This document shows positions 2-57,291 of a stretch of 64,000 bases of DNA, piece by piece. The number at the start of each line of letters is the position of its first letter. Positions within the stretch are counted from its first letter, which is position 1. The position numbers were made by a program, and so were the translations under genes. The stretch spans positions 1-64,000 of the IMG/VR virus record IMGVR_UViG_3300026544_000001; one strand, given 5' to 3'. The stretch is from a virus. Under the pieces are notes generated by a model, which saw nothing but the letters and a program-made list of their open reading frames with translations, was not told the origin of the DNA and made no database searches.

Positions 2-3000
2 TCAAATGGTATAGGTACTAAGTCTACTACAAGATTAGGAGACCCTGAAGACTCAACTGCTTCATATGTCAACGCTCCAGAAGCCCCTAATACAATAAGA
101 CACAAGTTCCATAGAGAGCCTACAGCCGATGAGTTAGCTAGGTATAATGCATCAATGATGGCTAAGAATAACTACGCTATGGGTACTACTCCAACTAGTA
201 AGGAAGCATATGCTGGAATAATAAATGATCCATTAACCTCTGAGAATCAAGTTATATACGATACAGAGATGAAGAAGCTACTTGCAGAGCAGGGAGATAA
301 CTTGGTATTTACTGGTAACGAAGGGCAATTAGGTAAGTATGGAAGACAAGTTGGTAATGTATATAATACTACATATGGAGATGGCACAGAGAGTTTGAAA
401 AATAGATTATTAGATACAGGTACTGCACAAATGTACTCATATGGTAAACCTATAGAGAATATTACTGATAGTAGTAGTAGTAGTAGTAGATATACTAAAA
501 AAGAATTACTAGCTAAAGCACGTGAGAAAGTATATGGTAAAAATTACGAACCAAGTACTTGGGAAAATATATTAGATACTCCAGGTGAGTTCGCAGCAGG
601 TGCAGTAGAAGGTGGGATGAGTTTAGTTGATGGTATAGGTAAACTAGGAGCTAAAGGGATTAATGCGTTATTTGATACTGACTATAGTGGTGAAGCATTT
701 GGTAAGAAAGACATAGATGATGCTAGTAATTACATTAGTGAAGCTATGGGAGTAGATGAATACGATAAAGAACTTAGACAAGAGAAAGCTGATAAGCTAG
801 TTGGTGACGCACTAAATAAGTTTGATATATGGCATCCTATAGATACATTTGGTGAGATAGATTGGGGTAATGCAGCTAAGGCTACAGTAGAGTTTCTTAA
901 AGATCCTAGTATGGCTGGACACTCACTTGGTTACATGGGTGGAGGAGCTGGTATGTACGGTACAGCTAGTGAGACACTAGTTAAAGGAATACTGAAAGCT
1001 TCAAGTAAAAAGATGGCTGAAAAAGTGTCTACTAGAGTTGCTGCAAAGAACTTAAGTAAAGAATCAGCTGATAAGCTAAGTAGTAAGTATTATGGTATAA
1101 CTGAGAAGAGGTTAGATAAATTAAGTGGTAATAAGCATTCAATGGAAATAGGATACGCATTCGCACAGACTAATGATTTAGATAATCAATATGCTGAGAA
1201 TAATAATGGTGAGCATATGAGTTTAGCTAAGTATACTGCTACATTAGTTGGTACAGCTGCATTAGCATTTCCTGAGATAGCGGCTATGAAGTTTGGATTA
1301 GGTAAAGCAGGTAAAGATATACTAAAAAATAAAAGTGTTAAAGATAAGGTTATTACAGTTAGTAAAGACTTATTAAAAGCTGGTATGTATGAACATGCTC
1401 AAGAAACAGCTGAACAAGCTTATCAAGAAGCAATTACTAAGTATGGTACTGCTAAATATAAAGATAAATCATTCGGTGAAATACTAAGTGAAAGTACTCA
1501 AAATATTATAGGTGCTGGTATGCAAGCAGGTCCTAGTGGTATTCATACAGCTAGTATTGGTATAGCTAGAAATTCGTTTGGCAGTAGTAAGGCTACTGAA
1601 GAAGCTAATACAGTATACAGCACTAAAGCTGATGTAGTTAATGATATTAATAAAGTTACTAAAGATATAGCAACTGCTAAGACTCCTGAAGATAAAGTAG
1701 TACTAGAGAAGAAGCTACAAGACTTACAAGATATAGATAGTAACTATATAGATACTCCTGATGACATAGACAATAGTGAGTTAGCTAGTAAGATTACTGG
1801 AGATACTAAAGAAGAGTATGCTAATAATGTTAAAAACGTATTAAACACATATATTAACGATTCTGTGTCTAAAGATAATATAGATAAGCTGTATGATAAA
1901 CTAGCTATAGATGAAACTAAAATTGATAAAGATACATTCAGTAAGTTAGTTACTGAAGATATTGCTGATAGTAGTGTTGATAACGATGTGACAAATAATA
2001 CTATACATGATGAGCTAGTTAGTGACTTTAGTAAAGATACAAATACTATTAACGATAAGATTAATTACTTACATAAGTACAATGATAAGTTACAAGATAT
2101 GGTCAGTAAGAATGGTACAAATGCTGAAGCAGTTAAACTACAACTAGCTATAGACAATTATAAAACTAAGTTGTATAAAGAGATCGCTGATCAAAATAAT
2201 AGTGAAGTTAGTAATGATACTACTATGCAGTCAACTGGTGATATGTCAACTATAAACAAGAAGATGCTTGATGAATTAGATACATCAATTAATACCTCAA
2301 TGGATAATAATCCTGATAGTAAGTTGCTTAATGATACTATGACAGACTTAGCTACTAATTACTCAGTTGATACTGTTAGTAAGTATAATAAAATGCTAGA
2401 GGATATGGTAGATACAGGTAAAAGTAGTAAAGGTACAATAGAAGCACTAGGAATAATAATAGATCATTATAAAAATAGATTACTAGAAGATGGTGTTAAA
2501 GAAGCTAGTGATATTGTTGTACCAGTTAATACTACTAAATATAAAGATGCTAACGCTATGGATTACATTACTACATTAGACGATGCTACTAGTGTAAAGG
2601 AGGATAAAGTACCAACTGGTAGTAATAATATAAATACTAATACAACTGAGCAAAATGATTATAAATTAGCTAAAGAGGGTGAACTATACACAGAACCAAA
2701 AATGAAAGATACTCGTACTGAACAAGCTACTGATAATAGTAGTAAAACTAATGATAAAATAATTAATAACAATACTGAAGATACTAGAGTAGATGAAGTA
2801 GCATCTGCTAATGATGATTCTAGTACAATATTAGTTACTAGTGCAAATGAAGGTACTGTACATACTATTCCTCATATAGATGAGTTAAAGAGTACTCATA
2901 AGAATGCGCTAGGGTGGATTAAACTAAGTGATGGTAAATATATTACAGAAGTTCAAAGTGACCTATACCAAAAAGGTATAAAAGCTGACTATTCTGGTAT

Positions 3001-6000
3001 GAGTGAAGAAGATATTGCTAGACTTACAGATGATGAGAAAGCTATAGTAGCTACTGCTAAAGTTAAAGGAACTAGTAAGGAATCTGAAGCTATAGCTAAA
3101 TATAAGAATACATGGGTAAAGAAGTTGTTAGAGGCTACTGAAGGTAAAGGAATTATACGTGTACCTATAGCAGGTACTATAAATAACTTCCAAACAGGAG
3201 TAGATAAAATAGTACCAATACAGAAAAGATACAATAAAACTATCCCTAAAGTGATGGAAGAGTTATACGGTAAAGGTAAAGAAGTTACTGTAAAGGAAGG
3301 TAAATACGTTGGTAAATGGTTAGAATTTGATACTACTAAAGGTAGTAGTAAGAAAGTAGATAATACAGAAACTGTCGCAACTAGTACTGAGAATACTAGC
3401 ATAAAAACTGATAATAGTGTAGTTACTAGTAATAGTGATGTATTATTCACAGGTAAGAATATAAGCAAAGTGTTTAGTATCAACCCAGCTTACAGACAAT
3501 ATGCTATGGATATATGGAATAAAGTTACATTACATACAACTGATAGTGTTAATGAAATATTATCTACACATACAGATAGTATTAATAAGTATAGTAAAAT
3601 TATAAATAAAATGTCACTTAATGGTAAGTTAACAGGTATTACATTATTCAATGTAATAGAAGATCCATTTACATTTCTTACTACTGAAGTGGTTAATAAA
3701 GGCACTAGTAATGCTAAAGATGCTAATACTAATAAATATTATTCATTCACTAGTTCAACAGTTAGGTACAAAAAAGAAGTTATAGCAGCTATTGCTAAAG
3801 TTACTAGTGAGTTTATGCTAGAGAATAAAAATAAATTAAGTTCACTTACTAATGAGGATATTGAAGCATACTATCCAGAGTACAAAGGTAATAATGCTGA
3901 TATACGAAATATTGGTATTCCTCAGAAGCTGTTAGTTAATACTTTAGGTAAAAAGGTAATGAAAGAGTTAGGTAGTAAGGTAGCTAGAGATATACCAGAT
4001 ACACAGATTAAGAGTTTATATGCTAGTGCTGGTTATAAAGTACTACAGTTATTACAAGGATTAGATGTAGTTAAAGTCGATAGCTTAGATAACTCATTAG
4101 ATACTGAACTAGTTAAAAAGTTATACGGTGAAGATGCTAATACTAAAGTTAAAGTATACAATGTACAAGCTACGGATAACTTCAAAACAGGTACAGTTAA
4201 ATTACGCGAATTGTACTCAATAGGAATAGATAGCACTAGTTCTGAAGATACTGGTAGAGTTCCTACTACAAGTAAACCAAAAGTACTTACTAAAGCTAAG
4301 GTTAAAAATAGTGTGTTTGGATCTGATGTAAGTAAAAAGAGTTTAAAAACACTTAATACATTAAATGCTACTGAGTATAAAATTGATCATGATATTGTTA
4401 AGTATATTAGTAAGTTAGTTGGTAGTAATAAAACCAATGTACTTAAAGCTATGGGAGCTAAAACAACTAAACAGCTGAGTAGTATGATATATGATGATGC
4501 TGAAGGAGCTAAAGCTAAGAATAAAGTACTAAATGATGAGCTTACTATAGCACTAGATGAAGCTAAACGCATAGGAGATAGCTCTGTATGGTTTAAATGG
4601 TTTGAGACTAGAAATGGTAGATTCATATTAGATAGCTTAACACTTAACCCACAATCAAATAAACAGGTAGATAGGTGGGTATCAGTACCAAGTAAAGCTA
4701 TTACAGCTATAGACCCTACTAAAGATAGTAAAGAAAATGATTTATTCAAGTTCGGTATAGCACAAGCATTCGGAGTTGCTACAGATAAGATTCCGTTCAA
4801 AGAATCAGTTAATATAGGTAATAATATACTTAGTATGGATGTTGATAAAGTAGTTAGTAAACTACTAGATGGTAAAGAAGTTAAAGTAGGTAATACTGAG
4901 TTAGAGATAGAACATTTTGGACAAATGGTTAGTGGGGCCGTTAACGCTAAACGATGGCAACAAGGTAAAGAGTTTGATAGTACATTACTATTTGAAGTAG
5001 ATGGAATTACAAATGGCATAATGCTCAAGTTGCTACAGTTTCCAATAAAGACTGCTAAAGAATGGTTATATAAAGGTGGTATAAATATAGGAAGTAATAA
5101 TACTACTCCATATAATGATTATAAAAGTGTTGGTAATATCAATGATGCATACCAATCACTAGTTATAGATACAGTATTACCTACTCCTAATAACGCCTTA
5201 GCTAAGAGTGTTATAGACGTACTTCCTAAGTTAAAAGATAGTAAAGGTAAAGTAACATCTGCAGGTAGGAACTTTGCTAAACCAATACTAATGTTATTCG
5301 GATATGGTGCTAGTACTCAAAGAATTATAAGTGACAGTGCTAGAGAGATCACTAAAAGCATATTAAATGGTATAGTAAAAGATAAAAATAACTTAACCAT
5401 AGAGCAAAAGAAGTTCCTTATAGGAATTAATAAAAGTACTGTAAATATTTCACATGTAGACTTCATTAATAAAGTGATAGGATTACTTGTTACTAAACCA
5501 ATGGACAGCATTACATATGGAGATATAGATGGTAATTATAGGAATACTAGAAAGTTACTAGAGTATACTAATATAAATGTTGCAGAAAACATTACTGAAC
5601 CAATAGTCAATAATCTAGTCGATACATTCAAAGAATTAACTGATGCTACAGAATTATTAAATGATTTAGGCAATACACAATTTAAAGTATATAAGAATAC
5701 AATAGACAAAGCTGTTAATATGGCTGAAGCAATTAAAGGTTCAACACTTACACAAAAAGAAAAAAGTAAAATAGCTAAAATGTACGAAAGCGCTAGACCA
5801 TTAGTTAAATCATTTGGTAGAAATATTGAAGCTATAGGAAAAGGTGTTGATAATATAAGTAGTGGTGAGAAGACACAAGTTAAAACTAATAAAAGTATAT
5901 ATGGTAAGGAAACACATACTATAAACTTATTCAAAGAGAAGTTAATAGATCCAGGTGCATCAATGGGGGTATTTCCTATTCACTTTACAGATGGTACAAT

Positions 6001-6616
6001 AATGAGTAATGTTATAGACGAGCTAGATGGAGGAATTACTGAAGTACATGATGCTATGGTAGTTGGTCCGGGTAATGCTGAAAAAGCTGTACTATCCTAT
6101 AATAAAAATGTACATAGTACTGCTATAAGCAATAGTGTATTATACAATGCTGCTGAAGGGTTAATTAATACTATTAATCATAAAGGTATAGTAGATAGTA
6201 GTATGCAAGATAGTATTAATGATGCATTAAAACAGTACTATACTACTAGTAAGATGATAGATAAAAATAGAAATAAGTTATTTAGTAAAGAAGTAGCGTA
6301 TAGCCAAGTACCATTAAATAATGATAGTACGTATATTGGAGATAACCAAGTTAAAAGTAATAGTGAGTTACCTAATGTAAAGTTCAATGATAAGTTAGAT
6401 GTTATAAAAATAGCTCGTATTGTTAAAAGTAATACTGATGGCATTAATGAAAAATTTTATCAGTATAATGAAGAAGCTATAAATAGTATACTTAACAGTG
6501 AAGAAGATAGTAACAAGATAAATAAATTAGTTAGTATGTTGTATACAGGTACCATAAAAGATATTCAAGATTATGTTAATAGTACATATGATATTATGTT
6601 AGTTAATAAATGTTAA
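2..6616 (+). CDS. Virion RNA polymerase, N4 gp50-like (5' end outside window)
   Basis: The frame is open from the first full codon of the window, so the protein continues upstream; at least 2204 codons are present and the ATGs at 155/158 are internal. Single-subunit RNAP motifs lie near the C-terminus: TxxGR (TRNGR, 4607-4621) followed by an NPQ; motif A with Asp in FEVDGITNG (codon 5000); motif B RNFAKPILMLFGYG (Rx3Kx7YG, Lys codon 5279, Tyr eight residues later, the spacing of N4 vRNAP); motif C VHDAM (Asp codon 6050). Upstream are a Gly/Ala-rich hydrophobic stretch (about 590-670) and a polyvalent-protein-like domain (about 2860-3345). In N4 this enzyme is packaged, injected and transcribes early genes from hairpin promoters. 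A Ser run (AGT repeats, about 470-490) is visible. Unlike N4, the gene stops soon after motif C. Confidence 0.85.
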   Translation, partial: SNGIGTKSTTRLGDPEDSTASYVNAPEAPNTIRHKFHREPTADELARYNASMMAKNNYAMGTTPTSKEAYAGIINDPLTSENQVIYDTEMKKLLAEQGDNLVFTGNEGQLGKYGRQVGNVYNTTYGDGTESLKNRLLDTGTAQMYSYGKPIENITDSSSSSSRYTKKELLAKAREKVYGKNYEPSTWENILDTPGEFAAGAVEGGMSLVDGIGKLGAKGINALFDTDYSGEAFGKKDIDDASNYISEAMGVDEYDKELRQEKADKLVGDALNKFDIWHPIDTFGEIDWGNAAKATVEFLKDPSMAGHSLGYMGGGAGMYGTASETLVKGILKASSKKMAEKVSTRVAAKNLSKESADKLSSKYYGITEKRLDKLSGNKHSMEIGYAFAQTNDLDNQYAENNNGEHMSLAKYTATLVGTAALAFPEIAAMKFGLGKAGKDILKNKSVKDKVITVSKDLLKAGMYEHAQETAEQAYQEAITKYGTAKYKDKSFGEILSESTQNIIGAGMQAGPSGIHTASIGIARNSFGSSKATEEANTVYSTKADVVNDINKVTKDIATAKTPEDKVVLEKKLQDLQDIDSNYIDTPDDIDNSELASKITGDTKEEYANNVKNVLNTYINDSVSKDNIDKLYDKLAIDETKIDKDTFSKLVTEDIADSSVDNDVTNNTIHDELVSDFSKDTNTINDKINYLHKYNDKLQDMVSKNGTNAEAVKLQLAIDNYKTKLYKEIADQNNSEVSNDTTMQSTGDMSTINKKMLDELDTSINTSMDNNPDSKLLNDTMTDLATNYSVDTVSKYNKMLEDMVDTGKSSKGTIEALGIIIDHYKNRLLEDGVKEASDIVVPVNTTKYKDANAMDYITTLDDATSVKEDKVPTGSNNINTNTTEQNDYKLAKEGELYTEPKMKDTRTEQATDNSSKTNDKIINNNTEDTRVDEVASANDDSSTILVTSANEGTVHTIPHIDELKSTHKNALGWIKLSDGKYITEVQSDLYQKGIKADYSGMSEEDIARLTDDEKAIVATAKVKGTSKESEAIAKYKNTWVKKLLEATEGKGIIRVPIAGTINNFQTGVDKIVPIQKRYNKTIPKVMEELYGKGKEVTVKEGKYVGKWLEFDTTKGSSKKVDNTETVATSTENTSIKTDNSVVTSNSDVLFTGKNISKVFSINPAYRQYAMDIWNKVTLHTTDSVNEILSTHTDSINKYSKIINKMSLNGKLTGITLFNVIEDPFTFLTTEVVNKGTSNAKDANTNKYYSFTSSTVRYKKEVIAAIAKVTSEFMLENKNKLSSLTNEDIEAYYPEYKGNNADIRNIGIPQKLLVNTLGKKVMKELGSKVARDIPDTQIKSLYASAGYKVLQLLQGLDVVKVDSLDNSLDTELVKKLYGEDANTKVKVYNVQATDNFKTGTVKLRELYSIGIDSTSSEDTGRVPTTSKPKVLTKAKVKNSVFGSDVSKKSLKTLNTLNATEYKIDHDIVKYISKLVGSNKTNVLKAMGAKTTKQLSSMIYDDAEGAKAKNKVLNDELTIALDEAKRIGDSSVWFKWFETRNGRFILDSLTLNPQSNKQVDRWVSVPSKAITAIDPTKDSKENDLFKFGIAQAFGVATDKIPFKESVNIGNNILSMDVDKVVSKLLDGKEVKVGNTELEIEHFGQMVSGAVNAKRWQQGKEFDSTLLFEVDGITNGIMLKLLQFPIKTAKEWLYKGGINIGSNNTTPYNDYKSVGNINDAYQSLVIDTVLPTPNNALAKSVIDVLPKLKDSKGKVTSAGRNFAKPILMLFGYGASTQRIISDSAREITKSILNGIVKDKNNLTIEQKKFLIGINKSTVNISHVDFINKVIGLLVTKPMDSITYGDIDGNYRNTRKLLEYTNINVAENITEPIVNNLVDTFKELTDATELLNDLGNTQFKVYKNTIDKAVNMAEAIKGSTLTQKEKSKIAKMYESARPLVKSFGRNIEAIGKGVDNISSGEKTQVKTNKSIYGKETHTINLFKEKLIDPGASMGVFPIHFTDGTIMSNVIDELDGGITEVHDAMVVGPGNAEKAVLSYNKNVHSTAISNSVLYNAAEGLINTINHKGIVDSSMQDSINDALKQYYTTSKMIDKNRNKLFSKEVAYSQVPLNNDSTYIGDNQVKSNSELPNVKFNDKLDVIKIARIVKSNTDGINEKFYQYNEEAINSILNSEEDSNKINKLVSMLYTGTIKDIQDYVNSTYDIMLVNKC

Positions 6617-9600: not shown

Positions 9601-10546
9601 AGTATCACAAATAGCTACTAGTATATGGAAAGAGATAGTTAGTATAGCTAAAATAGATATAGTAATTAGAACTCCAGCTGTATTAGTTGGTAATATTATG
9701 AGTAATGTTATGTTATGTATGCAGTTTGGTATGTCCCCTAAAGAAGTGTTGAAATTACAAATAGAAGGTGTTAGAGAATTAGAAATATATAGAAAAGATA
9801 AAGAAGAGTTAGATAAACTTGTACTAAAGAAAGAAGTACTAGGTAGTTCAGTTGATAATCAGATTGAAAGATTACAAGCTAAGATTAATAGAAATTCTGT
9901 TAAGCCTTTAGTAGATGCGGGGTTCTTTACGTATATAATGGAAGATGTGAATATTGGTGAAAGTAAAAACAATAGTACAATAACTAGATGGGTAGATAAG
10001 AAATTAGATGGTAAGCCAGAAGGTATTAAAACTATAGCTAACTACTTGTACTTTACTGAAAGAACTAAGCCATTTCAAATTATGGTTAAAGCTACACAAG
10101 ATAGTGATTTTGCAGCTAGGTATGCTATGTATCATGCTAATAAGAAAAAGATAGATAGCATGGATGTATCAGTTAAAGTTAAAGCTAAGATGATTAGCGA
10201 TTTACTTAAACAAACAAGAGATGCCTTTATTAATTACGGTAAATTGGACAATGTATTCATTAAATACGCTAATGATATGGGGTTAGTTATGTTTACGAAA
10301 TTCTTAATAGGTACTCAAAGAACTATTAAAATGTTAATTAAAGGTAAACCAGTTAGTGCAATGCTTGTAGGATTATCACAAAATATTACTGGAGACATTG
10401 ATGATGTTATAGATCATAATATACTACAATATGATGTTGATAAGTTATTGTATAACCCAACTAGTATATTAGAAGCTGCAGCTACTCCCACATTATTTGA
10501 AGTTCCTTCATTACTAGAGCAATCATTAAGGCTAACTAGAAATTAG
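6626..10546 (+). CDS. Large virion protein with HExxH motif, possible detached vRNAP C-terminal domain
   Basis: This 1306-aa protein starts 10 bp after the polymerase stop, with SD AAGGAAAATAT before the ATG. Residues around 252-256 read HEVFH, a zinc-metallopeptidase HExxH, and a downstream HEFLAYA (about 7576-7600) could supply a third ligand. The rest is mostly helical and Ser/Lys/Asp-rich, with a conserved-looking patch RTPAVLVGNIMSNVM near 9668-9712. N4 vRNAP carries a C-terminal domain of roughly 1400 residues after its polymerase domain; the position and size of this protein match that domain as a separate chain. It could instead be an unrelated ejection protein. No catalytic activity is proven. 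It ends 13 bp from the convergent minus-strand operon with no terminator in between. Confidence 0.6.
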   Translation: MNCKIKISNRTVNKTEAKNIATYFMKSSKELADEAYNKIDNLAKESVVTSIYPSSTSKIKALKDSVPIVIESIENYDLFDKTMTIIGKNLYTNKNVVYNMQLVDMYDNRLMLQSTNRLSDGGVLKITDPIAISSITSKLKAISNTQSTIKFESTSNSKINSNANPEATELLSEESVTRLIDEHSNGNKYMKEVAKELFSTNGLLNNINVEHFSNTAETSANVIFDSRLNPKNIALFYNKYDETGMDIGERYLHEVFHATLVPLLESTSSLYTVQLSKLENVYTKVLPHMTVDKLVKNGINDRLANSMIEHINEGSQGFHEFLAYAKTNEAFRKVLNEINVDTIVEPKNMMGMLMKLVKSFFSKLSSSKIDGNSKKIIDGLVTDILQIQSNNIQRSNVAKAFNKLGKVIDKFNNNAAAKIKLAEDKLSEASRVKYTKLRNSINNDGSITDKIKLFGIAISLLYSNADKAKGVFTGILKSVGMDPNGVAMQGINSFMEQDNLANEVENLGLLSQQIDEKKQSIANLISNTIHESFTTKLDWDTKEAITNIFIKTDIQSIFTKFNEITEDNIYKLLDKNKRKTMLISNISKLQDIVKNKDVMEYIDRQSDILAKYMVHGTTHIGLLKNSLQVAYGTGYKKQLDLFNNDEAIRLIDSITSLKALELTDTSKVSDLLAKDKTNVEGLTTLLKMHKEHVAKSAKELFKYDKVNVIKGYTKFIPDPNIDVVIKSISETAALKKDGYALSHMVKVPGMDGTYGLFVNKYKPKVGFNKQAVRVIDSYRTGTSVTQLLKDQLASGAISSYSEFESKRNKVLAQYDRLFDRYKRTGKDTGLKHIAPIFSTDGTVIDYAIHMDTKTKDSIYNTDNRVDNVMAGMYNTLVDKTLSNEFNTKIVDDLVDYHKEFYKEDANMLVSKDGYPIVMLGPGELASDERAKKIWGMLPSYMQKGIEKQLSVGGKPFKGLAVREDLIRPWFGEHDYNFSEGKIGKLSPAKVKRVSQIATSIWKEIVSIAKIDIVIRTPAVLVGNIMSNVMLCMQFGMSPKEVLKLQIEGVRELEIYRKDKEELDKLVLKKEVLGSSVDNQIERLQAKINRNSVKPLVDAGFFTYIMEDVNIGESKNNSTITRWVDKKLDGKPEGIKTIANYLYFTERTKPFQIMVKATQDSDFAARYAMYHANKKKIDSMDVSVKVKAKMISDLLKQTRDAFINYGKLDNVFIKYANDMGLVMFTKFLIGTQRTIKMLIKGKPVSAMLVGLSQNITGDIDDVIDHNILQYDVDKLLYNPTSILEAAATPTLFEVPSLLEQSLRLTRN

Positions 10547-18717: not shown

Positions 18718-19449
18718 TTATATATCATCTGAATCGTCGTTTACTGCTGCTTGTTGTTGAGCAGGTTGTGTTGTTTGTTGAGGTGTAGATGATTGTTGTG
18801 CAGCTGGTGCTGTACCTAATTTTTGTTCTAATAGTTGATTCTTTAATTGAATACAAGCTGGGTTTTGTTCTTTACCATATTGGATTGTGATATTTTCTTT
18901 AGCTTCTGCATCGAATGCTTCTAATCTATCTCTACCCATTGGGTCTTTACCGTCTTTGTCTAAGAACTTAAATGTATCAACTACTTGGTTAGCATATGCT
19001 TTAGTTCCATCTTTGTCTGGTTGAATCTCAGTTGAACTAACAATGTATAGTTTCTTACCTTCTACTTTAGGGAAGATAGTGATTGCATTACCTTTATCAT
19101 CTGTTCCTGATTGTGAGTTAGCTGTAGCTTGTTTTACATCTTTAATACCAATAGATTTAACTAATCTTGCAATAATTGCTGCAACTCTTTTATCTGCTTT
19201 TGCTGCTTTTGCTATCTCTTCTGGTGAATTATCTTTTGGGTTACCAAAGAAACTAGTTATATCTAATGCTTCACCTGCTGCAGTTGTAAAATCTATATTG
19301 AATCTATCCCATCCATTACCTGCTGTTTCATACATTCTAGCTATAGTAACTAAGTGTGCACCTGCTTCTCTACATTTATCTGATGTATTACCTAATGATG
19401 CAATCGCATCGTTGTCCATTTCATTAATTGTGTTTAATAATCTACTCAT
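18718..19449 (-). CDS. SSB-like protein with acidic C-terminal tail (N4 gp45-type candidate)
   Basis: This 243-aa protein has a globular N-terminal part (1-205), a low-complexity Gln/Ala/Thr/Pro linker (about 206-235) and a terminal DDSDDI, the architecture of single-strand binding proteins whose acidic tip recruits partners. In N4 the SSB also activates host sigma70 RNAP at late promoters, which would fit the sigma70 promoter in front of the terminase. Position between the ATPase and helicase genes supports the call; the OB-fold itself is not obvious from motifs. Confidence 0.65.
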   Translation of the reverse strand: MSRLLNTINEMDNDAIASLGNTSDKCREAGAHLVTIARMYETAGNGWDRFNIDFTTAAGEALDITSFFGNPKDNSPEEIAKAAKADKRVAAIIARLVKSIGIKDVKQATANSQSGTDDKGNAITIFPKVEGKKLYIVSSTEIQPDKDGTKAYANQVVDTFKFLDKDGKDPMGRDRLEAFDAEAKENITIQYGKEQNPACIQLKNQLLEQKLGTAPAAQQSSTPQQTTQPAQQQAAVNDDSDDI

Positions 19450-28476: not shown

Positions 28477-28713
28477 TTAACTCTTTGAGTATAATGGCAT
28501 ATCTCCACAGTAAAGGTCTGCTTCAACTTCTTGTTGTAGTTGGTTATACTTACTAGTATTTGGATCTAATTTATCTTTAACAAATTTAGCTATATCTATT
28601 ATATTCTGCAGTTCTTCTACTGGTATAGTGTATGCTTGATAGCTAATTATTAATTCTATTTCATTTGCTTTAATATCTACTGATATATCTCCATAGTTAT
28701 ATGTTAGTTTCAT
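28477..28713 (-). CDS. Unrecognised 78-aa protein
   Basis: Beta-rich start (MKLTYNYGDISVDIKANEIELIIS in three pieces), helical end. SD AAGGATAACAA. No family recognised. Confidence 0.6.
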   Translation of the reverse strand: MKLTYNYGDISVDIKANEIELIISYQAYTIPVEELQNIIDIAKFVKDKLDPNTSKYNQLQQEVEADLYCGDMPLYSKS

Positions 28714-28722
28714 TTGTTATCC

Positions 28723-30939
28723 TTATAGTTTATTCTGTTTATAGTTGCTTATATTAAAGTTTCGTTTGTTGGTTACAGCTTCGTATACATCATGTGATAT
28801 AGCATTATCGCTAACTAGTATATTTACAGGAACTATATGATTGTTATTAACATTAACAGTTCTTTCAACTACTTGTGTATACTTAGCACCACTGAATGTA
28901 AGACTAGTTAGTATGAATACATCTGCGTGAGAATAATCTACACCTTCTGCTTTACTTATTACGGACTCTACTGTAGCTTGTGGAAAGTGTTTACGAAGAA
29001 GATCTCTTTCACCTATGAATGCTGATAAGATTACTGAGTCTTTAGTTATAGTGAAGTTATTCTTTATATAATCTATTGTCTCTGTATTACCTACTTCATA
29101 GTAGTCATCATCTATCTTAGCTACGCCTTTCTCTAACATATATAGACTAGTGTTTAATTTCATTATAGAATCAGCTACTAGTAGAGTATCACCTATAGGT
29201 ATGACTCTATCTGTTTGTAGTTTATTGTATAATACCTTAGTAAAGTTAGATAATTCCACTTTATGTAGTACTATGTTAGATTGTAAACTTTCATCAATCC
29301 CTGCATCTTTTTGTGTCATATAAACAGAGAAAGTGTTGATATACTGCAAAAGTTGGGGTTGCGCGAGCTTATATGTCTCACGGAACTCAGTTCTACTAAT
29401 TTGTATAGGATTTGGAATACCATATTCCTTAAAAAATGTGTAAAAGGACTTATGTGGAAATGGTGTCTTAGTAGAGAAACTAGTTGCATAGTATATTTGA
29501 TTAGGTGTCTCTACAAATGATGTACCAGACATAGCTAACCAAGGTTTATCACCAGCAAATATCTTAAGTAGTTTGTATCTCTTAGATGGTTTACCTACTT
29601 TACCTAGTACATGATGTTCATCACATATGATAAAGTCATAGTCATCTGGATTAAGTTTGAACTGTGGTTCCTCTACAGGCTTGATAGTCTTACCTGATTT
29701 AGATTTAGTACGAGTTACAAATCTACCTAATGCTTCATAGTTAGTTACATAATGAGACTGATGTTCCCAATACTTAGTTAGTTCAGGGTCATTGATAAAT
29801 TTCTCGATCCCTTTTATAGCTGCTTTTTTAGTAAGAATAAGTATAGACTTAATAGTACGTGACTTAGCTATAGCTAGTAATGCTGTAAGGCTCTTACCTG
29901 AGTTCCCAGTAGGTATAACTTTATTATTCCTACGCATTAACCACATACCTGAATTGGTAGTAAAACAGTAACTAGTTCCTATATGCTTAGTTATTTCTGT
30001 TTGGTTTTTCTTTTGTAATAATCTATATTTCCCTTGTAAAATATTTACCTCGTATATATCATTATTTACGTAAGTTCTCTTATCTTTATGCATTACAACT
30101 TGTTTTTCTGTTACACAACTAAATATATGTTGTACTATAGTACAGTCTTGTTTATTTCCTGTAAACTTTTTTACAGTTTGTTTTGTATCATTTCGTACAT
30201 AAATACTACCATCCCAGAATAGTAAGTCATAAAATAATAGTTTCATTTGTTTTTTATTTAATCCCCATAAAGGTTCTAAAGATTTAAAATTTATGCATTT
30301 AGGTGGTGTATACACATAACGTTTGTACCCTTCTGAAGATTTATAAATTTCATATGGTATATTAGCTTCTTTTAAAAGAAATTCACAATACATTTGCTTT
30401 TTTTCTTTTTTAACGTTAATTGCCATCTTACTACTCATAGTAGTCCTATCTATAATAGAACCATCTGCAGAATGCATTATCAGTACTCGTAATAATTCTA
30501 TAGATATATCTAATCCGTTAGATTCAGGGCTTTTATAAAATGCTGGTATACGTAATGAATGTAATTTAACAGCTTCATCAAAACGTTTTTTACGTATATG
30601 ACCTCTGCTTGTTTCATATACTATATCATGATTAGCTGTTACACACATATCTATTATAGGTGTTTGTAATGTATATAACTCACTATTAGGATATTTATGA
30701 TATTCTAAAGGTTCTATAAGTTTAGTTGTACCATCTTCATACCATTCGCATACAAGATCACCTGGTTCATACTCTGATATATACTTCCATCCATTCGGTG
30801 TTAGAAATTCTGTAGTTTCATCTACACAACGAACTTCGCCCTGTAGTAAGCAATATTTCTTCCTTTTAAGCATGTCAAAAACTTCTTCTGATTTAGTTAG
30901 TTGATGAGGTAGAGGCTGCATTTCTATCTCCTCATCCAA
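28723..30939 (-). CDS. SF2 DNA helicase with intein in the Walker A loop
   Basis: The 738-aa precursor contains a 309-aa intein (residues 38-346). Joining the exteins restores LLQGEVRSGKSLTALLAI, a Walker A, in a 429-aa helicase. Walker B is FIICDEHHVLG (DEHH), motif III is LAMSGTSF, and the C-terminal RecA-like lobe includes DVFILTSLTFSGAKYTQVVERTVN. The helicase cannot bind ATP without splicing. It overlaps the RecA-like ATPase gene by 16 bp and sits near the RecB-like nuclease. Confidence 0.88.
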   Translation of the reverse strand: MDEEIEMQPLPHQLTKSEEVFDMLKRKKYCLLQGEVRCVDETTEFLTPNGWKYISEYEPGDLVCEWYEDGTTKLIEPLEYHKYPNSELYTLQTPIIDMCVTANHDIVYETSRGHIRKKRFDEAVKLHSLRIPAFYKSPESNGLDISIELLRVLIMHSADGSIIDRTTMSSKMAINVKKEKKQMYCEFLLKEANIPYEIYKSSEGYKRYVYTPPKCINFKSLEPLWGLNKKQMKLLFYDLLFWDGSIYVRNDTKQTVKKFTGNKQDCTIVQHIFSCVTEKQVVMHKDKRTYVNNDIYEVNILQGKYRLLQKKNQTEITKHIGTSYCFTTNSGMWLMRRNNKVIPTGNSGKSLTALLAIAKSRTIKSILILTKKAAIKGIEKFINDPELTKYWEHQSHYVTNYEALGRFVTRTKSKSGKTIKPVEEPQFKLNPDDYDFIICDEHHVLGKVGKPSKRYKLLKIFAGDKPWLAMSGTSFVETPNQIYYATSFSTKTPFPHKSFYTFFKEYGIPNPIQISRTEFRETYKLAQPQLLQYINTFSVYMTQKDAGIDESLQSNIVLHKVELSNFTKVLYNKLQTDRVIPIGDTLLVADSIMKLNTSLYMLEKGVAKIDDDYYEVGNTETIDYIKNNFTITKDSVILSAFIGERDLLRKHFPQATVESVISKAEGVDYSHADVFILTSLTFSGAKYTQVVERTVNVNNNHIVPVNILVSDNAISHDVYEAVTNKRNFNISNYKQNKL
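29902..30828 (-). mobile_element. Intein with LAGLIDADG-type homing endonuclease domain
   Basis: It begins CVDETTEFL (Cys1), has block B CVTANHDIVYE with Thr and His, two dodecapeptide-like motifs (LLRVLIMHSADGS and LLFYDLLFWDGS) and ends KVIPTGN before Ser+1. The endonuclease domain lies roughly at residues 145-250 of the precursor. The penultimate residue is Gly, as in the NrdA intein. Insertion between GEVR and SGKS in a P-loop is a typical intein site. Confidence 0.9.
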
Positions 30940-31469
30940 TTAGGTATTATCCTATCACCAGCGTAATTACGTAATTTCTCTATATGGAGATTTACTCCTT
31001 CTGGTCTAGGGTTTGTTTTAGTACTACTACCTTTATCATATTCAAGATATAGTTTACTATCCATATGGTTAGCTATTCGTCTATCCATATCAGGTATATT
31101 TTGTTTAGTAGCTAGATCTTTATTATGTGCAACTATAACTACTGTATTACCTAACTTAGCTATTTCCTTTAAAAAGTCAATAGTACCTCCTGCATCTATG
31201 AATAGTTGCCATGTATCTACTATGAATACACCATTGTCTGGTATGTCAATACCTTCAGTATCTTCTTTATGTAACTTAAGTATTTCTACTCCGTCTAAAT
31301 GTACAAATTCAAGTCCTGTTGTTTCTGGACTTAGGTTGTTATCAAAATCTATAAGATAAGGTGTTATGTTATCTTCGTTTAGTGCTTTAATAGTTGAAAA
31401 TGTTTTACCTAATCCACTAGCACCATATATTAAATTTAATCCGTTCTTTACGAATACGTTTCCTACCAT
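30924..31469 (-). CDS. RecA-like ATPase (AAA_24-type phage nucleotide-binding protein)
   Basis: Start 31469 (MVGNVFVKNG) has SD AAGGAATATATT. The 181-aa protein has Walker A GASGLGKT near its N-terminus, LIDFDNN, Walker B GVFIVDTW, and VVIVAHN as the sensor strand. Such short RecA-core proteins accompany phage helicases and recombinases. It overlaps the helicase start by 16 bp. Confidence 0.78.
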   Translation of the reverse strand: MVGNVFVKNGLNLIYGASGLGKTFSTIKALNEDNITPYLIDFDNNLSPETTGLEFVHLDGVEILKLHKEDTEGIDIPDNGVFIVDTWQLFIDAGGTIDFLKEIAKLGNTVVIVAHNKDLATKQNIPDMDRRIANHMDSKLYLEYDKGSSTKTNPRPEGVNLHIEKLRNYAGDRIIPNWMRR

Positions 31470-31547
31470 AATATATTCCTTATAGTTAGTTATTTTTGTT
31501 CTTAACATTATTATTTTCCTGTGTGTAATTTACAGACTTGAAGAGTA

Positions 31548-31631
31548 GGTTACTAGGCTGCTCTGATATCTGCATTATTATAATTACTTATGTGGAGGCA
31601 CGAGGGCCTCAGAAAGAACAGGCTAGTAACC
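31548..31631. ncRNA. Structured element A, closed by a 9-bp stem
   Basis: GGTTACTAG (31548-31556) pairs perfectly with CTAGTAACC (31623-31631). Inside, CTG/CAG and TCTGA/TCAGA continue the helix with an asymmetric loop, and an AGGC/GCCT hairpin lies at 31596-31609. There is no coding frame with an SD. No tRNA T-loop is present. Function and transcribed strand unknown. Confidence 0.5.
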
Positions 31632-31652
31632 ATAATAATATAGATGTTTGTA

Positions 31653-31689
31653 AATTTTACTAATAAATTTAATAAATTTATGTAAAATT
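31653..31689. other. AT-only extended hairpin
   Basis: AATTTTAC (31653) pairs with GTAAAATT (31689 end) and, after a 2-nt bulge, ATAAATTT pairs with AAATTTAT around a three-base AAT loop. Sixteen perfect A/T-rich pairs between structured elements A and B. It could be a promoter hairpin, terminator or spacer. Confidence 0.55.
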
Positions 31690-31742
31690 ATACCCAAAAA
31701 AATAACATTTGTCAAGTAAAAATATATTAACACAACTGAATA

Positions 31743-31865
31743 GCTATAAGTTGAAGAGGTGCGCCTATGAGAGACCATGAGTCTTTGACTATGTGACAGG
31801 CGATGAGCCTGACGCGTAGGCAATAGGGAATGTCTCGATTAGGTGTGCGTCTGATGACTTATAGC
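31743..31865 (+). ncRNA. Structured element B, multi-helix junction
   Basis: Closing stem GCTATAAGT/ACTTATAGC (31743-31751/31857-31865); second stem GTGCGCCTA/TAGGTGTGC (31759-31767/31840-31848) with three G-U pairs on the plus strand; a symmetric TGA/GAT loop able to form tandem sheared G-A pairs; third stem GAGAC/GTCTC; then two hairpins (31776-31793, loop TTT; 31797-31811, loop GATGA). G-U and G-A pairing favour a plus-strand RNA, opposite to the flanking genes. It is more GC-rich than neighbouring genes. Confidence 0.55.
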
Positions 31866-31901
31866 GGTATGCTCGTATGCGTATACTTATATAGATATAT
31901 A

Positions 31902-32029
31902 AACCAACTCCCATAAATTTGCACACTACGTCTTCGACTTGATTGTAGACTTATCTTCGAGCCTCGTCGGCTGAATAAGTAGTCTAAAATCGGCGTCTCA
32001 TCCTTGGTACAAATTTATTCCCGTTGGTT
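31902..32029. ncRNA. Structured element C
   Basis: AACCAAC (31902-31908) pairs with GTTGGTT (32023-32029); after a symmetric TCCC/TCCC loop, ATAAATTTG pairs with CAAATTTAT. Inside, TAGACTTAT pairs with ATAAGTAGTCTA around a 3-nt bulge and AGCC/GGCT forms a hairpin. The right arm touches the stop codon of the gene at 32028. No coding frame with an SD. Confidence 0.5.
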
Positions 32030-32576
32030 ATTTGTAGATAGTAAAATCATATATTAACGGTTGTATTGTATAGTAGTCTGTATTATTAGGATCATATGGT
32101 TCAACAATACATCTACCATTACGGTAGTTACATACTACTAGTTCATCATTAGTAGGTTCCCAAATTGTTAATGAGCTAGGTCTACTTACACCCATTCCAG
32201 CAGGCCATTGAACTTGGATTGTTTGATTAGTTTTAGATGGTACAAAAGCAAGAATATGTCCTATAGTACCATCATTATGGATAACCCAATCACCTACTTT
32301 AAATTCAGGTTCATCTGGTTTTATACGATAGTCTTCTGCAGTAAGTTTGTTATACTTAAAAGCTTGTTGAAAACTATACTTTACTGGTAAATCAACCCAT
32401 TTCATTTCTATATTTAAATATTGTACTGTTTTACTGTCTTCTATTGCTTTTCTATACTCGCTGTAACTATCGTTGATAACATATTCACATTCAATGTTCC
32501 AAGTTGGTTGAGCACTTAAATTCCATTCGTTTAAACTACCTTTACACCATATCTCAGCTCCTTCTGGTTGATCCAT
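32028..32576 (-). CDS. Phage protein with YRIKP motif, probably 5'-frameshifted paralog of the gene at 46330
   Basis: The visible frame starts at an internal Met (MDQPEGAEIWCKG). It shares a long near-identical stretch (GAEIWCKGSLN-WNLSAQPTW and so on) with the 46330-47058 protein, and about 95 bp of DNA are almost identical. The expected start is ATG at 32623 behind CAGGAGAAGTAACATT, but that ATG is one base out of frame; with one extra base the 22 N-terminal residues align without gaps to the paralog. The C-terminal half has a KVGDWVIHNDGTIGHI beta-barrel-like segment. Function unknown. Confidence 0.6.
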   Translation of the reverse strand: MDQPEGAEIWCKGSLNEWNLSAQPTWNIECEYVINDSYSEYRKAIEDSKTVQYLNIEMKWVDLPVKYSFQQAFKYNKLTAEDYRIKPDEPEFKVGDWVIHNDGTIGHILAFVPSKTNQTIQVQWPAGMGVSRPSSLTIWEPTNDELVVCNYRNGRCIVEPYDPNNTDYYTIQPLIYDFTIYK

Positions 32577-32627
32577 AAACCATATAATAGTTTCTCTATG
32601 TTTAGCCCATTCTGTTTTATCATAATG

Positions 32628-32855
32628 TTACTTCTCCTGTGTTAATATATCAAGTTCTTCTATAGAAGATATAATATCAAATTCTAGTATTTTATTACTT
32701 GTAAAATCTTTTCTATGAAGATATTCTTCAGCTAATTCTTTAGTTGAAAATACTTTATCTAATACTAGTTCTCCGTTAGGTCCACTTATAAAATTATAAG
32801 ATGGATATACGTGTTGGTTTCCGCTATTATAATGTGTTGGTATGTATATTTTCAT
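32628..32855 (-). CDS. Unrecognised 75-aa protein
   Basis: Starts behind CAGGAGAAGTAACATT, the same leader that precedes the next gene downstream, so the leader (which includes the end of each upstream gene) looks duplicated. No family recognised. Confidence 0.65.
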   Translation of the reverse strand: MKIYIPTHYNSGNQHVYPSYNFISGPNGELVLDKVFSTKELAEEYLHRKDFTSNKILEFDIISSIEELDILTQEK

Positions 32856-33337
32856 AATGTTACTTCTCCTGAATTAAGTAGATTACATATTTTTTGTGCT
32901 GTTATGTGGTTCATTTGTATTCCGCCTATATGTTGTGTTACAGCATTAGACAATTTGTAAGTATTATCTGCATCTAAGTATATATAACAGGTATCCTTAT
33001 ATGTTACTTCATTTTGAAATTGATACACTAGTTGCTCTAATACATTAGATTGTACCATACGTGCGTGTGAGTCTTCTGCTTGTTTTCTAGTAGAACGGAT
33101 AATACCTAAATCTACAATATCTGCTATTATATTACATTCTGCTGTTCCATAATTGTCTGCACGGTATGTAGTAGGTGGAAAACTCCATTCAAATGATGGT
33201 TTGATACGATATAGACAATCTTTCCAGTTCCATGATGGCTTAGGTGCTGAACGCCATATATTATACCTATCTATAAATTCTATTTCTCTACCATCTGCAT
33301 ATGCCTGCATAATTTCTATTTGTTCTAATATAGTCAT
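32852..33337 (-). CDS. Phage protein with WNW/YRIKP motif, 161 aa
   Basis: Residues about 10-45 (MQAYADGREIEFIDRYNIW, then PSWNWKDCLYRIKPS) match a module shared with the 32028 and 46330 proteins (W...YRIKPDEP). Such proteins are common in phage early regions and have no known biochemistry. Its stop overlaps the next ATG (ATGA). Confidence 0.65.
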   Translation of the reverse strand: MTILEQIEIMQAYADGREIEFIDRYNIWRSAPKPSWNWKDCLYRIKPSFEWSFPPTTYRADNYGTAECNIIADIVDLGIIRSTRKQAEDSHARMVQSNVLEQLVYQFQNEVTYKDTCYIYLDADNTYKLSNAVTQHIGGIQMNHITAQKICNLLNSGEVTL

Positions 33338-33346
33338 TTAGTTTCC

Positions 33347-33883
33347 TTAGTATTCATATTTTCCATGTACTTGATCTATAGGATACTTACGTTCTCCGCC
33401 GTTATCATAGAACTTCTGAACGTAATCTTTTATCTCAGATCGTTTTAGCTTTCTATTTAGTCTACGTCTAGATTCAATAAACCAATTTCTTTCTTTAGGT
33501 TTACTGATAGCTATACCACCATCTATAATATCTGTTGTAATACCTTGTTTCTTATATTTAGTTATAAAAGACTGTCCTAATGCTATTATACATAGATCAA
33601 TAAACCCATCGTCATCTAATAGTCCTTCAGGTATTCTGTTTATATTGAATTCTTCAACATAACCTCTGTTCTCTGCCATTAGTAATACTTTTATTACATT
33701 CTTTATTTCTTGAAAATTATACCCTGCTAGTAACCTATTACGTTCATTTGCATTCTTATTTAATTCATCATAAATTCTCTTGTCTTTCTTATACTGCTCA
33801 ATGAGAGACTGCTTATGTTTTTGTAGATCTACTATTTGTTTAGATATATCATCTATTTGCTGTTGTTGTTCATGCAGATTCAT
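33347..33883 (-). CDS. Unrecognised 178-aa protein with N-terminal coiled coil
   Basis: The first 45 residues are a Gln/Lys/Glu coiled coil (EQQQQIDDISKQIVDLQKHK). The rest is basic and alpha/beta with no recognisable motif. It overlaps the upstream small membrane protein gene by 14 bp. Confidence 0.65.
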   Translation of the reverse strand: MNLHEQQQQIDDISKQIVDLQKHKQSLIEQYKKDKRIYDELNKNANERNRLLAGYNFQEIKNVIKVLLMAENRGYVEEFNINRIPEGLLDDDGFIDLCIIALGQSFITKYKKQGITTDIIDGGIAISKPKERNWFIESRRRLNRKLKRSEIKDYVQKFYDNGGERKYPIDQVHGKYEY

Positions 33884-34061
33884 TTAGTTTCCTTATTTCT
33901 ATAATAACACCATATGCTGCTAGGAATATCATAGCTGTTGTTAGTAGATAATTTTGGTTTGCTTCATTATTAGCAAATGCTGACATTATTGCAAATGCTG
34001 ACATTATTGCAAATGCAATAGATATTACAAATTCTGCTGTTATCTTATTTTTCCAATTCAT
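33870..34061 (-). CDS. Small two-helix membrane protein, 63 aa
   Basis: Two hydrophobic helices (about 10-30 and 38-55) separated by NNEANQN. The first helix contains a tandem peptide repeat IMSAFA twice, from an 18-bp DNA repeat. Role unknown. Confidence 0.6.
   Translation of the reverse strand: MNWKNKITAEFVISIAFAIMSAFAIMSAFANNEANQNYLLTTAMIFLAAYGVIIEIRKLNESA
33973..34008. repeat. Two tandem copies of an 18-bp repeat
   Basis: GCAAATGCTGACATTATT occurs twice in tandem (33973-33990, 33991-34008) followed by a partial third copy. It lies in frame within the transmembrane helix of the 63-aa protein. Confidence 0.9.
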
Positions 34062-34227
34062 TTAGATACTCCTCTAGTGTGTCTGTTAGTCTGTATTTAC
34101 TGATACTGAATTCAATACCATATTCTTCTGCTATGTATGATAGATACTCTGCTATTTCTACTTGATCTAGTGCTACTTGATTATTGAAAGCTATTTCTAG
34201 CAGTTCATTAAAACATTCTGTGGTCAT
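34045..34227 (-). CDS. Small acidic protein, 60 aa
   Basis: Helical and acidic (YLSYIAEEYGIEFSISKY). It overlaps both neighbours by 17-20 bp. No family recognised. Confidence 0.55.
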   Translation of the reverse strand: MTTECFNELLEIAFNNQVALDQVEIAEYLSYIAEEYGIEFSISKYRLTDTLEEYLNELEK

Positions 34228-34396
34228 TTGGTTTACTCCTTAATGATAGTTTAGTTGAATACCCCTTGTAAAAATCATTCTTATAGAGAATACAGCCAAA
34301 AGTGTGTTTAGTTATAGATTGATCTACCTTAATAGCTTCTGTTAGAATTTGGCATGTTTCTAGTCGATTACAAGTGTTACATGTTAAGTAGGTCAT
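34208..34396 (-). CDS. Small Cys-rich protein, 62 aa
   Basis: CNTCNRLETC near the N-terminus and a later FGC could form a metal site. It starts by ATGA overlap with the VRR-NUC gene. Function unknown. Confidence 0.55.
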   Translation of the reverse strand: MTYLTCNTCNRLETCQILTEAIKVDQSITKHTFGCILYKNDFYKGYSTKLSLRSKPNDHRMF

Positions 34397-34683
34397 ACTT
34401 CGTCTGTATTAGGTTCAAGAAATCGTTTGACATCTTCTACTGATGTTGCTACGAATGCTGTACCACCTGATTGTATAATAGCATCTATGTTGTATTGTTG
34501 TATAGGAGTAGTAGTATGTACTGTATTAGGTTTCTTTACTTCTATACCATAGAATACTCCATTATGACATGCTATAATGTCTGGTACACCTGATCTATTA
34601 GTAGATATAGTTACAAATGTATATGCACCTATAGATGTAAGATACTTTGAGATCTGTTTCTGTATTTGTTGTTCTGTAACCAT
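34393..34683 (-). CDS. VRR-NUC domain nuclease
   Basis: This 96-aa protein is a complete stand-alone VRR-NUC: N-terminal EQQIQKQISKYL helix, NRSGVPDIIACHNGVFYGIEVKKP (PD ... ExK catalytic core) and a QQYNIDAIIQSGG helix. The family are structure-specific nucleases in phages and restriction-like contexts. It sits two genes from DNA ligase. Confidence 0.88.
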   Translation of the reverse strand: MVTEQQIQKQISKYLTSIGAYTFVTISTNRSGVPDIIACHNGVFYGIEVKKPNTVHTTTPIQQYNIDAIIQSGGTAFVATSVEDVKRFLEPNTDEV

Positions 34684-34685
34684 TT

Positions 34686-35108
34686 TTAATCCTTTACGTC
34701 TGGTAGTACTTCTGGTTTATTAGGTAATTTACCGTATTTGTAATAATGTTCTATTACATCCGTACCCATTAGTACTCTATAGTACTTAGTACCATCTTTA
34801 CCTGTATCACTTAAAACTAGTAGATACTTTTTATCTTTTAGTTCTTTACGTATACGTTTAACTTTAGCTACTGACCAATGTAGCTTTTTAGCTATGTACT
34901 CATTGTCATTAGGTTTAAAGTAATTAAATGTAGCTTTTCTATAATAAAAATGGTATAGTTTATATGCACTGTCTGTTAGTTCTGTATTTAGTTCATCTAG
35001 GTATTTATCTGTAAACATGTATACTCCTCGTTCGTATTTAGTATTTTCTGACAAAGGCTTATATACCTTTGTAGAAATATTAAGATAATTTTCGCTATAC
35101 TTATCCAT
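34686..35108 (-). CDS. Winged-helix DNA-binding regulator (paralog of the 55067 gene)
   Basis: The ATG at 35108 has SD AAGGATTGCTT; a second in-frame ATG at 35018 has a stronger SD (GAGGAGTATAC) giving a 110-aa form. The domain (SAYKLYHFYYRKATFNYF ... NEYIAKKLHWSVAKVKRIRKEL) matches the 55067-55528 protein in order and spacing, an HTH-type layout. Both genes share the leader and the double start. Probably a regulator of phage transcription or replication; target unknown. Confidence 0.65.
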   Translation of the reverse strand: MDKYSENYLNISTKVYKPLSENTKYERGVYMFTDKYLDELNTELTDSAYKLYHFYYRKATFNYFKPNDNEYIAKKLHWSVAKVKRIRKELKDKKYLLVLSDTGKDGTKYYRVLMGTDVIEHYYKYGKLPNKPEVLPDVKD

Positions 35109-35170
35109 AAGCAATCCTTGTAATTTATTGTGGTGATAAAATTATAGCTCATATTTGCTTAAACTAACTT

Positions 35171-35194
35171 AATAAAAGCTCAGATTTGAGCTTT
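35171..35194 (-). terminator. Possible terminator hairpin
   Basis: AAAGCTCA (35175-35182) and TGAGCTTT (35187-35194) form a perfect 8-bp stem with a 4-nt loop. On the minus strand it is followed by TTTTATT, a short U tract. Confidence 0.5.
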
Positions 35195-35291
35195 ATCTTA
35201 CTAGAATAGATCAAATATATACCTGATATTAAATAGAATCCCAATGTTTAAAGCATTTATACTTAATTTAGTATAGTACTACTTACATATA

Positions 35292-35391
35292 TAATATATT
35301 AGTGAACTGGTATAACTTTGTGATCAAAAATCTGTCAAAGGAATAACAATAATATGTGTGTGTTTAGTTATACCAGCTCGCTAATATATTA
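35292..35391. other. 26-bp long-range inverted repeat at a stop codon
   Basis: The arms 35292-35317 and 35366-35391 pair over 26 positions with two differences, both compatible with wobble in RNA; the loop is 48 nt. The right arm begins at the stop codon of the 35389 gene. With the terminator at 35171 this makes the 280-bp gap a regulatory segment without genes. Confidence 0.75.
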
Positions 35392-43425: not shown

Positions 43426-43485
43426 ATTAGTTCCTTGTGTTAAATTTATTATTTATGTCATCCAGCTCCCGCATATGGATAGACT

Positions 43486-43535
43486 GCTATTCCCACTAAG
43501 TTTCGACACCTATTGATCAAGTAGGTCTGAATAGC
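43486..43535. other. Structured intergenic element G
   Basis: GCTATTC (43486-43492) pairs with GAATAGC (43529-43535); inside, ACCTATT pairs with AGTAGGT around GATCA. It is GC-enriched relative to neighbours and lies in the 120-bp gap 43426-43548, which has no supported gene. Not a tRNA. Confidence 0.45.
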
Positions 43536-43548
43536 TCCCAACTGTTTA

Positions 43549-43713
43549 TTATAAATCAAATTGTTTATAGTTTAATATATCACATATATGTTGTGCATCT
43601 TCTTTTGTTTTAAAATAAATTTTACATAATGAGTATTGTAAATCATCTGTGTTACAATTAAATGCACGTGATCCTGTTAATGTATAATTAGCTAATAGTT
43701 CATCTATTGTCAT
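43549..43713 (-). CDS. Small protein, 54 aa
   Basis: ATG overlapping the upstream stop (TAATG) opens MTIDELLANYTLTGSRAFNC ..., ending KQFDL. Length, coupling and composition support a gene. No family recognised. Confidence 0.55.
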   Translation of the reverse strand: MTIDELLANYTLTGSRAFNCNTDDLQYSLCKIYFKTKEDAQHICDILNYKQFDL

Positions 43714-44619: not shown

Positions 44620-44639
44620 TATTATTCCTTATATTAAGG

Positions 44640-44718
44640 TGGTGAAGTAGGTAGATACTCGAAATCTACAATTCTCACTTAAAAGGCGAGTGTCAATTAC
44701 CGCTTAGACTACTACTTC
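44640..44718 (-). tRNA. tRNA-Lys (anticodon UUU)
   Basis: Read on the minus strand: acceptor GAAGTAG/CTACTTC, U8-A9, D arm with AAGCGGTAA loop, anticodon stem CTCGC/GTGAG with loop CTTTTAA (anticodon TTT, U33 and A37 in place), T loop TTCGAGT on a six-bp stem GTAGAT/ATCTAC, discriminator A and encoded CCA. The 4-nt variable region with the long T stem is slightly unusual. It would read the abundant AAA/AAG codons. Confidence 0.85.
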
Positions 44719-44732
44719 ATTTGTAGTTGAGC

Positions 44733-44790
44733 AGGCTAGGTCTCAACTGGTCTTTATAGCCAAGTACTATGTACTAAGGAGTTACCTATG
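44733..44790. other. Hairpins between tRNA-Lys and the next gene
   Basis: An AGTTGAG/CTCAACT hairpin and an AGTAC-TAT-GTACT hairpin with a three-base loop lie upstream of the tRNA. A plus-strand AAGGAG-ATG pair opening only 20 codons follows at about 44787. No gene is supported in 44719-44863. Confidence 0.5.
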
Positions 44791-44863
44791 AAAACATATG
44801 AATCCAAAGGATACAGGATTTCACTGCATGCACCTCCATCTTGCATATGAGGCTCTGGGTGTA

Positions 44864-56270: not shown

Positions 56271-56328
56271 TTAGCAACTCCTTGCTTAATTATTTCTTCG
56301 ACATTATTATAGTAGGTGTTAGCTTAAT

Positions 56329-56381
56329 AGTCCCTTTAAATAGGGATTTTACTAGTTATAAAGTCCCTTTAACTAGGGACT
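56329..56381. promoter_or_regulatory. Paired hairpins 33 bp apart
   Basis: AGTCCCTTTAAATAGGGAT (56329-56347) and AGTCCCTTTAACTAGGGACT (56362-56381) are near-identical inverted repeats whose starts are 33 bp apart, about three helical turns. They precede the 55845-56270 gene: operator, iteron or N4-type hairpin promoter candidates. The 235-bp gap 56271-56505 has no supported gene. Confidence 0.6.
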
Positions 56382-56449
56382 CAAAATAAGTACTAATACG
56401 ATGGTTAAGCTATAGTTACATTCTAAGAGTATATAGCTAACTAGGTAAT

Positions 56450-56478
56450 AGTAAAAGATATACTCTCTTTAGGATACT
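56450..56478. repeat. 29-bp direct repeat, copy 2
   Basis: Identical to 55807-55835, again placed shortly downstream of a minus-strand gene (56506-56787). Confidence 0.85.
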
Positions 56479-56505
56479 CTCATAGAAAAAGATAGTAACA
56501 ACCTA

Positions 56506-57262: not shown

Positions 57263-57291
57263 TTGACATTATAGTTAAATATGTGTATACT
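57263..57291 (+). promoter_or_regulatory. Consensus sigma70 promoter for the terminase operon
   Basis: TTGACA (57263-57268), exactly 17 bp, then TATACT (57286-57291); the SD AGGAG and ATG 57317 follow. N4 late genes use host sigma70 RNAP, so this fits a late promoter. Confidence 0.8.

Follow-up and report, generated by a model that had tools for sequence, protein, structure and literature searches.

A non-coding island in the replication-gene block

We examined a window of 64,000 nucleotides (bases 1-64000 of a 124,676-bp IMG/VR virus record) that carries genes for a relative of the N4 virion RNA polymerase (155-6616), a terminase, a DNA polymerase, a primase, a ribonucleotide reductase and a DNA ligase. 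By DNA polymerase, the nearest cultured relatives are Alteromonas phages AD45-P1, PT11-V19 and R22Y (37-39% identity), and matches at 35-43% identity occur in 80 IMG/VR contigs. A search for a close relative of the genome returned none, and on these sequence comparisons we therefore count the phage as an isolated genome within a distantly N4-like group. No tRNA genes were found within the window; the only two found in the record so far lie at record positions 82061-82133 and 82200-82272 (L002:19061-19133 and 19200-19272).

Within the replication-gene block, two minus-strand ORFs (30924-31508 and 32028-32576) border a gene-free stretch. The ATG at 31508 has no Shine-Dalgarno sequence, and an in-frame ATG at 31469 is preceded by AAGGAA; the gene annotated at 30924-31508 thus most likely starts at 31469. 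With the upstream gene ending at 32028, this start gives a non-coding span of about 560 bases, here called the island, whose features are listed in Table 1.

Table 1. Features of the island and of the repeated hairpin in related phage L030 (positions are those of the window, except in the last row, where they are those of L030)
Feature	Position	Strand	Basis or remark
Non-coding island between two minus-strand genes	31470-32027		ORF map, internal-ORF codon scores, fold z
Likely Shine-Dalgarno sequence AAGGAA of the downstream ATPase-like gene	31476-31481	-	start codon 31469-31467, in frame with ORF 30924-31508
D1 hairpin domain, predicted 5'-leader structure of the sigma-70 transcript	31548-31631	-, strand ambiguous	shuffles, 17-nt inverted repeat
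Alternative D1 helix (31568-31588 with 31625-31645)	31568-31645	+	inverted repeat; in plus-strand minimum-energy fold
AT-only inverted repeat across the predicted transcription start	31653-31689		inverted repeats, z -3.1
Perfect sigma-70 promoter match, TTGACA-N17-TATAAT	31687-31715 (read 31715-31687)	-	predicted start near 31680
D2 rod-like hairpin	31743-31865	+	-59.2 kcal/mol, z -8.5, 8 G-U pairs
D2 apical hairpin, CAGGC-GATGA-GCCTG	31797-31811	+	GAYGA-loop scan
D3 rod-like hairpin, beginning at the stop codon of the upstream gene	31902-32029	-	fold energy, z
D3 apical hairpin, AGCC-GACGA-GGCT	31960-31972	-	GAYGA-loop scan
L030 hairpin copies	3211-3276, 3432-3500, 3692-3756, 4038-4110, 9621-9690		RUGU-N-AUCAY core

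Three ORFs of at least 38 aa occur in the island (41, 66 and 45 aa), and their codon scores are negative (-0.15, -0.46 and -0.39), whereas the neighbouring genes have gene-like scores of +0.35 and +0.29. The island is without a credible ORF, and the gene-free stretch reported in the initial annotation is real. Its description there as a gap among overlapping genes holds as to the gap but not as to any uniqueness, as the genome has several further intergenic gaps of more than 200 bp, some of them structured too. Other folded intergenic stretches lie at window positions 44620-44840, 43426-43712 and 56271-56505; near 56330-56380, two near-identical hairpins of CCCTTTAA-N-TAGGG type sit inside folded intergenic DNA.

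Three domains fold more stably than expected

Inverted repeats close three separate domains, D1, D2 and D3. The closing helices were found as GGTTACTAG/CTAGTAACC (extending to 17 nt at 88%), GCTATAAGT/ACTTATAGC and AACCAACTCCCATAAATTTGCAC/GTACAAATTTATTCCCGTTGGTT (23 nt, 78%). In AT-rich DNA a single 9-bp helix carries little weight, since we estimate that about one arises by chance per 500 bp, and folding was therefore preferred as the test of structure. On both strands each domain was more stable than all of its 300 dinucleotide shuffles, which were made per domain and per strand; the island as a whole folds with z = -6.6 on the plus strand and -4.3 on the minus strand. The GC content of the modelled stretches is 0.49 for D2 and 0.43 for D3, against 0.31 for the window. 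Tandem domains closed by long-range helices, and GC enrichment, had both been proposed beforehand, and both are borne out. Structured domains in the island thus have statistical support from a single sequence, and the island combines an absence of coding potential with a significant fold, as a phage structured non-coding RNA should. Alignments of the three domains with one another, or with other intergenic regions, scored no higher than shuffled sequences.

D2 is the most stable of these structures. Its plus-strand fold energy of -59.2 kcal/mol was equalled by none of 5112 windows of the same length sampled across the 64 kb (mean -17.8 kcal/mol, sd 5.4); cutting D2 at its own closing helix gives it a slight advantage in this comparison, yet the three top-ranking fixed windows fall on D2 as well. 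The z-score falls from -8.5 on the plus strand to -4.9 on the minus strand, at a cost of 24 kcal/mol, and the plus-strand fold contains 8 G-U pairs where the minus-strand fold contains none. The energy gap and the G-U pairs are good evidence that D2, if it is an RNA, is read on the plus strand, and a strand bias with such a G-U asymmetry is the trace that selection on RNA, rather than on DNA, would be expected to leave. D3 leans the other way (-43.4 kcal/mol and z = -5.6 on the minus strand, -35.7 kcal/mol and z = -4.4 on the plus strand), although its preference of 8 kcal/mol makes a weaker case than that for D2.

On exactly these favoured strands, D2 and D3 each carry a GAYGA apical loop on G-C pairs, and the intergenic DNA that we scanned in the record contained no other hairpins with such a loop (stem of at least 4). 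In both domains GAAGA and GAUGA also face each other across an internal loop. Such short motifs are no more than suggestive. From the common apical loop and the opposed GAAGA and GAUGA segments, one might take D2 and D3 for two related small phage RNAs, rod-like and convergent, of a new class acting in trans during infection; we think this has a small chance of being correct. A candidate kink-turn in D2 was inspected by hand, and its register was unconvincing.

The strand of D1 is ambiguous. Its z-scores are -3.6 (plus) and -4.4 (minus), with 0 of 300 shuffles better on either strand; the closing stem extends better on the minus strand, whereas an alternative helix forms better on the plus strand. 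In the modelled folds, closing stem and alternative helix would be either mutually exclusive or parts of a pseudoknot.

A perfect sigma-70 promoter match beside D1

In the AT-rich gap beside D1, and directed toward D1 and the ATPase and helicase genes, lies a sigma-70 promoter that matches the consensus at 12 of 12 positions. It is the only such match (spacing 16-18) in the approximately 123 kb examined, with 0.2 expected per 64 kb. From the predicted start to the ATG, the predicted leader would be about 210 nt long and would include D1. The AT-only hairpin noted in the initial annotation is present, but it spans this predicted start instead of lying inside a domain; it is possibly an operator or a 5'-end hairpin. 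Our scan found no good sigma-70 promoter for D2 on the plus strand, and no intrinsic terminator (a G+C-rich stem followed by a T run) was found within the island.

N4 uses a phage polymerase for its replication genes and host sigma-70 polymerase for its late genes (PMC4496689). An active sigma-70 promoter in the island would thus depart from the N4 scheme. Elsewhere in the window, an 11/12 sigma-70 site (57263-57291, plus strand) stands directly before a rightward block that includes the terminase, which fits the late transcription by host sigma-70 polymerase seen in N4.

Homologue searches and folded gaps in related phages

Searches of Rfam with the island and with the window, the check proposed in the initial annotation, gave nothing at gathering score, and permissive E-values yielded only sub-threshold chance matches. 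We found no homologue of the domains by blastn against phage and plasmid records, nothing below E = 0.01 by blastn against the relatives that we fetched, and no homologue of D1-D3 among the 80 DNA-polymerase relatives. Pattern matches for D2 and D3 in IMG/VR were rejected as GC-rich and largely from one recurring coding-like context, or as isolated chance matches; the 16-mer pattern of D2 in particular had many matches, mostly in this one context, which we take to be a putative phage structural gene. Covariance models built from single sequences of D2 and D3 recovered nothing beyond the window itself and, for D2, short coding-like matches. The ATPase protein as bait returned no relative, and the helicase protein led to L224, where the island is absent. 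The SNF2-type helicase gene itself (window 28723-30939, minus strand) is interrupted by an intein-like insertion, which its relative in L224 does not have.

Intergenic gaps of related phages often fold well. The clearest case is L030 (122,779 bp; DNA polymerase 39% identical), which has five copies of a hairpin of about 68 nt with a UNAU loop, four in a gene-free island of about 1 kb and one just before the polymerase gene. In an alignment of the five copies, both partners have changed in 16 of 22 pairs, and the share of cells that pair is 90%, as against 35-55% when the alignment is slid; this covariation is strong but not final evidence, as these five sequences also served to derive the structure and all are copies within a single genome. 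Several copies sit inside domains of about 200-260 nt closed by long helices. The L030 hairpin had no noteworthy match in Rfam and no blastn match in phages, and its model had no match in the window. In L030, as in our phage, long helices close tandem domains within a gene-free island, which lies some 6-7 kb upstream of the gene for DNA polymerase; L030 differs in that its five covarying copies are of one hairpin, unrelated to D1-D3. The covarying closed domains of L030 show that selection can act on gene-free islands of this sort within the group.

Other arrangements were noted in passing. In L030, a segment at the 5' base is followed by its complement and appears again after a second hairpin, a bistable layout. 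Structured gaps lie directly upstream of a DnaD-like/HTH gene (34686-35114) and its homologues in several relatives (window 35115-35388; L027:5856-6327; L038:9105-9493; L045:4165-4542), possibly as an origin or a shared leader. In related phages (L007:4185-4320 and L053:3570-3745), an intrinsic terminator is immediately followed by a hairpin with a closing stem of about 20 bp, after which a gene begins.

Interpretation and alternatives

The reading that we favour, to which we give about even weight, is that of a control region without protein-coding genes from which structured RNA is made, with D1 as a leader and D2 and D3 as plus- and minus-strand RNAs. Host-type sigma-70 polymerase would initiate leftward within the AT-rich gap and produce a transcript with folded D1 in its leader, ahead of the ATPase and helicase genes, and D1 may tune the translation or stability of that transcript. 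The opposite strand would give rise to D2 as an independent structured RNA of rod-like shape; D3, a rod at the 3' end of the minus-strand gene upstream, could yield an RNA derived from the 3' UTR or act as a 3'-end stabiliser. Island RNAs of this kind would most likely be uncatalogued regulatory RNAs. We infer transcription, strand use, processing and regulatory roles from the lack of a coding signal, the non-random folds, the G-U bias of D2, the promoter, the GAYGA loops and the parallel in L030. The same reading is weakened by the lack of a homologue, of a good promoter for D2 and of a terminator, by the ambiguity of D1, by domains that do not align with one another, and by the N4 scheme.

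Alternatively, the domains may be double-stranded structures for processing or stability in a read-through mRNA, comparable to the RNase III sites of T7, in which case no small RNA would exist on its own. In agreement with this, irregular rods of 84-128 nt lie between genes that share one operon direction, and rods with stems of about 20 bp stand between terminator and gene in L007 and L053; mRNA processing leaves unexplained, however, why D2 gains 24 kcal/mol on the strand that is antisense to the operon, and we regard this alternative as unlikely.

The island may also have no selected function and be a remnant or fast-changing filler that folds well by accident. The genes around it (28477-34683) have no homologue in the relatives' loci, which indicates that the region turns over fast, and other gaps fold well too. 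Such filler would hardly be expected to contain a fold with the z-score of D2, unmatched in 64 kb, adjoining a perfect promoter, and we think it improbable.

Slightly more improbable still is that the hairpins act as DNA, either as extruded promoters for the virion RNA polymerase or within a replication origin that unwinds at an AT-rich region. The virion RNA polymerase of the phage is of the N4 type, and its N4 counterpart needs extruded hairpins (PMC4496689), and strong hairpins flank an AT-rich gap inside the replication block; but the island contains no hairpin with a 3-nt loop, a stem of at least 5 and at least three G-C pairs, and a role as DNA predicts no G-U strand bias, against the 8 versus 0 of D2. 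A single large RNA of the ROOL/GOLLD type across the island, as first suggested from its size and phage location, is very improbable, given no meaningful Rfam match, a differing architecture, tRNA genes about 50 kb away, and folding preferences that place D2 and D3 on opposite strands, so that they would not share one transcript.

The non-coding RNAs that large environmental phages encode are still poorly catalogued. On the favoured reading of the island as an RNA-encoding control region, D2, if transcribed, would be a very stable phage RNA beside a replication-gene promoter. Under the same condition, D2 and L030 together would suggest that closed hairpin islands arise repeatedly in this phage group and are missed by sequence and Rfam searches.

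Comparison with known systems

ROOL and GOLLD are large structured non-coding RNAs encoded by phages, with poorly known function (PMC12286853); they are single RNAs of about 600 to over 800 nt, multibranched and pseudoknotted, and are often found near tRNA islands. In contrast, the island consists of separate hairpins of 84-128 nt, and the ROOL and GOLLD models matched neither at gathering score nor at E-values up to 5 (island) or 3 (window). The hairpins required by the N4 virion RNA polymerase are short, with a stem of 5-7 bp and a 3-nt loop (PMC4496689). Our phage is similar in having a related virion polymerase and intergenic hairpins, although none of that shape was found in the island. 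In T7 early mRNA, RNase III processing hairpins lie between the early genes. The island resembles these sites in placing irregular rod-like hairpins between phage genes; its rods are longer than the T7 sites, and the strand that D2 prefers is antisense to the genes.
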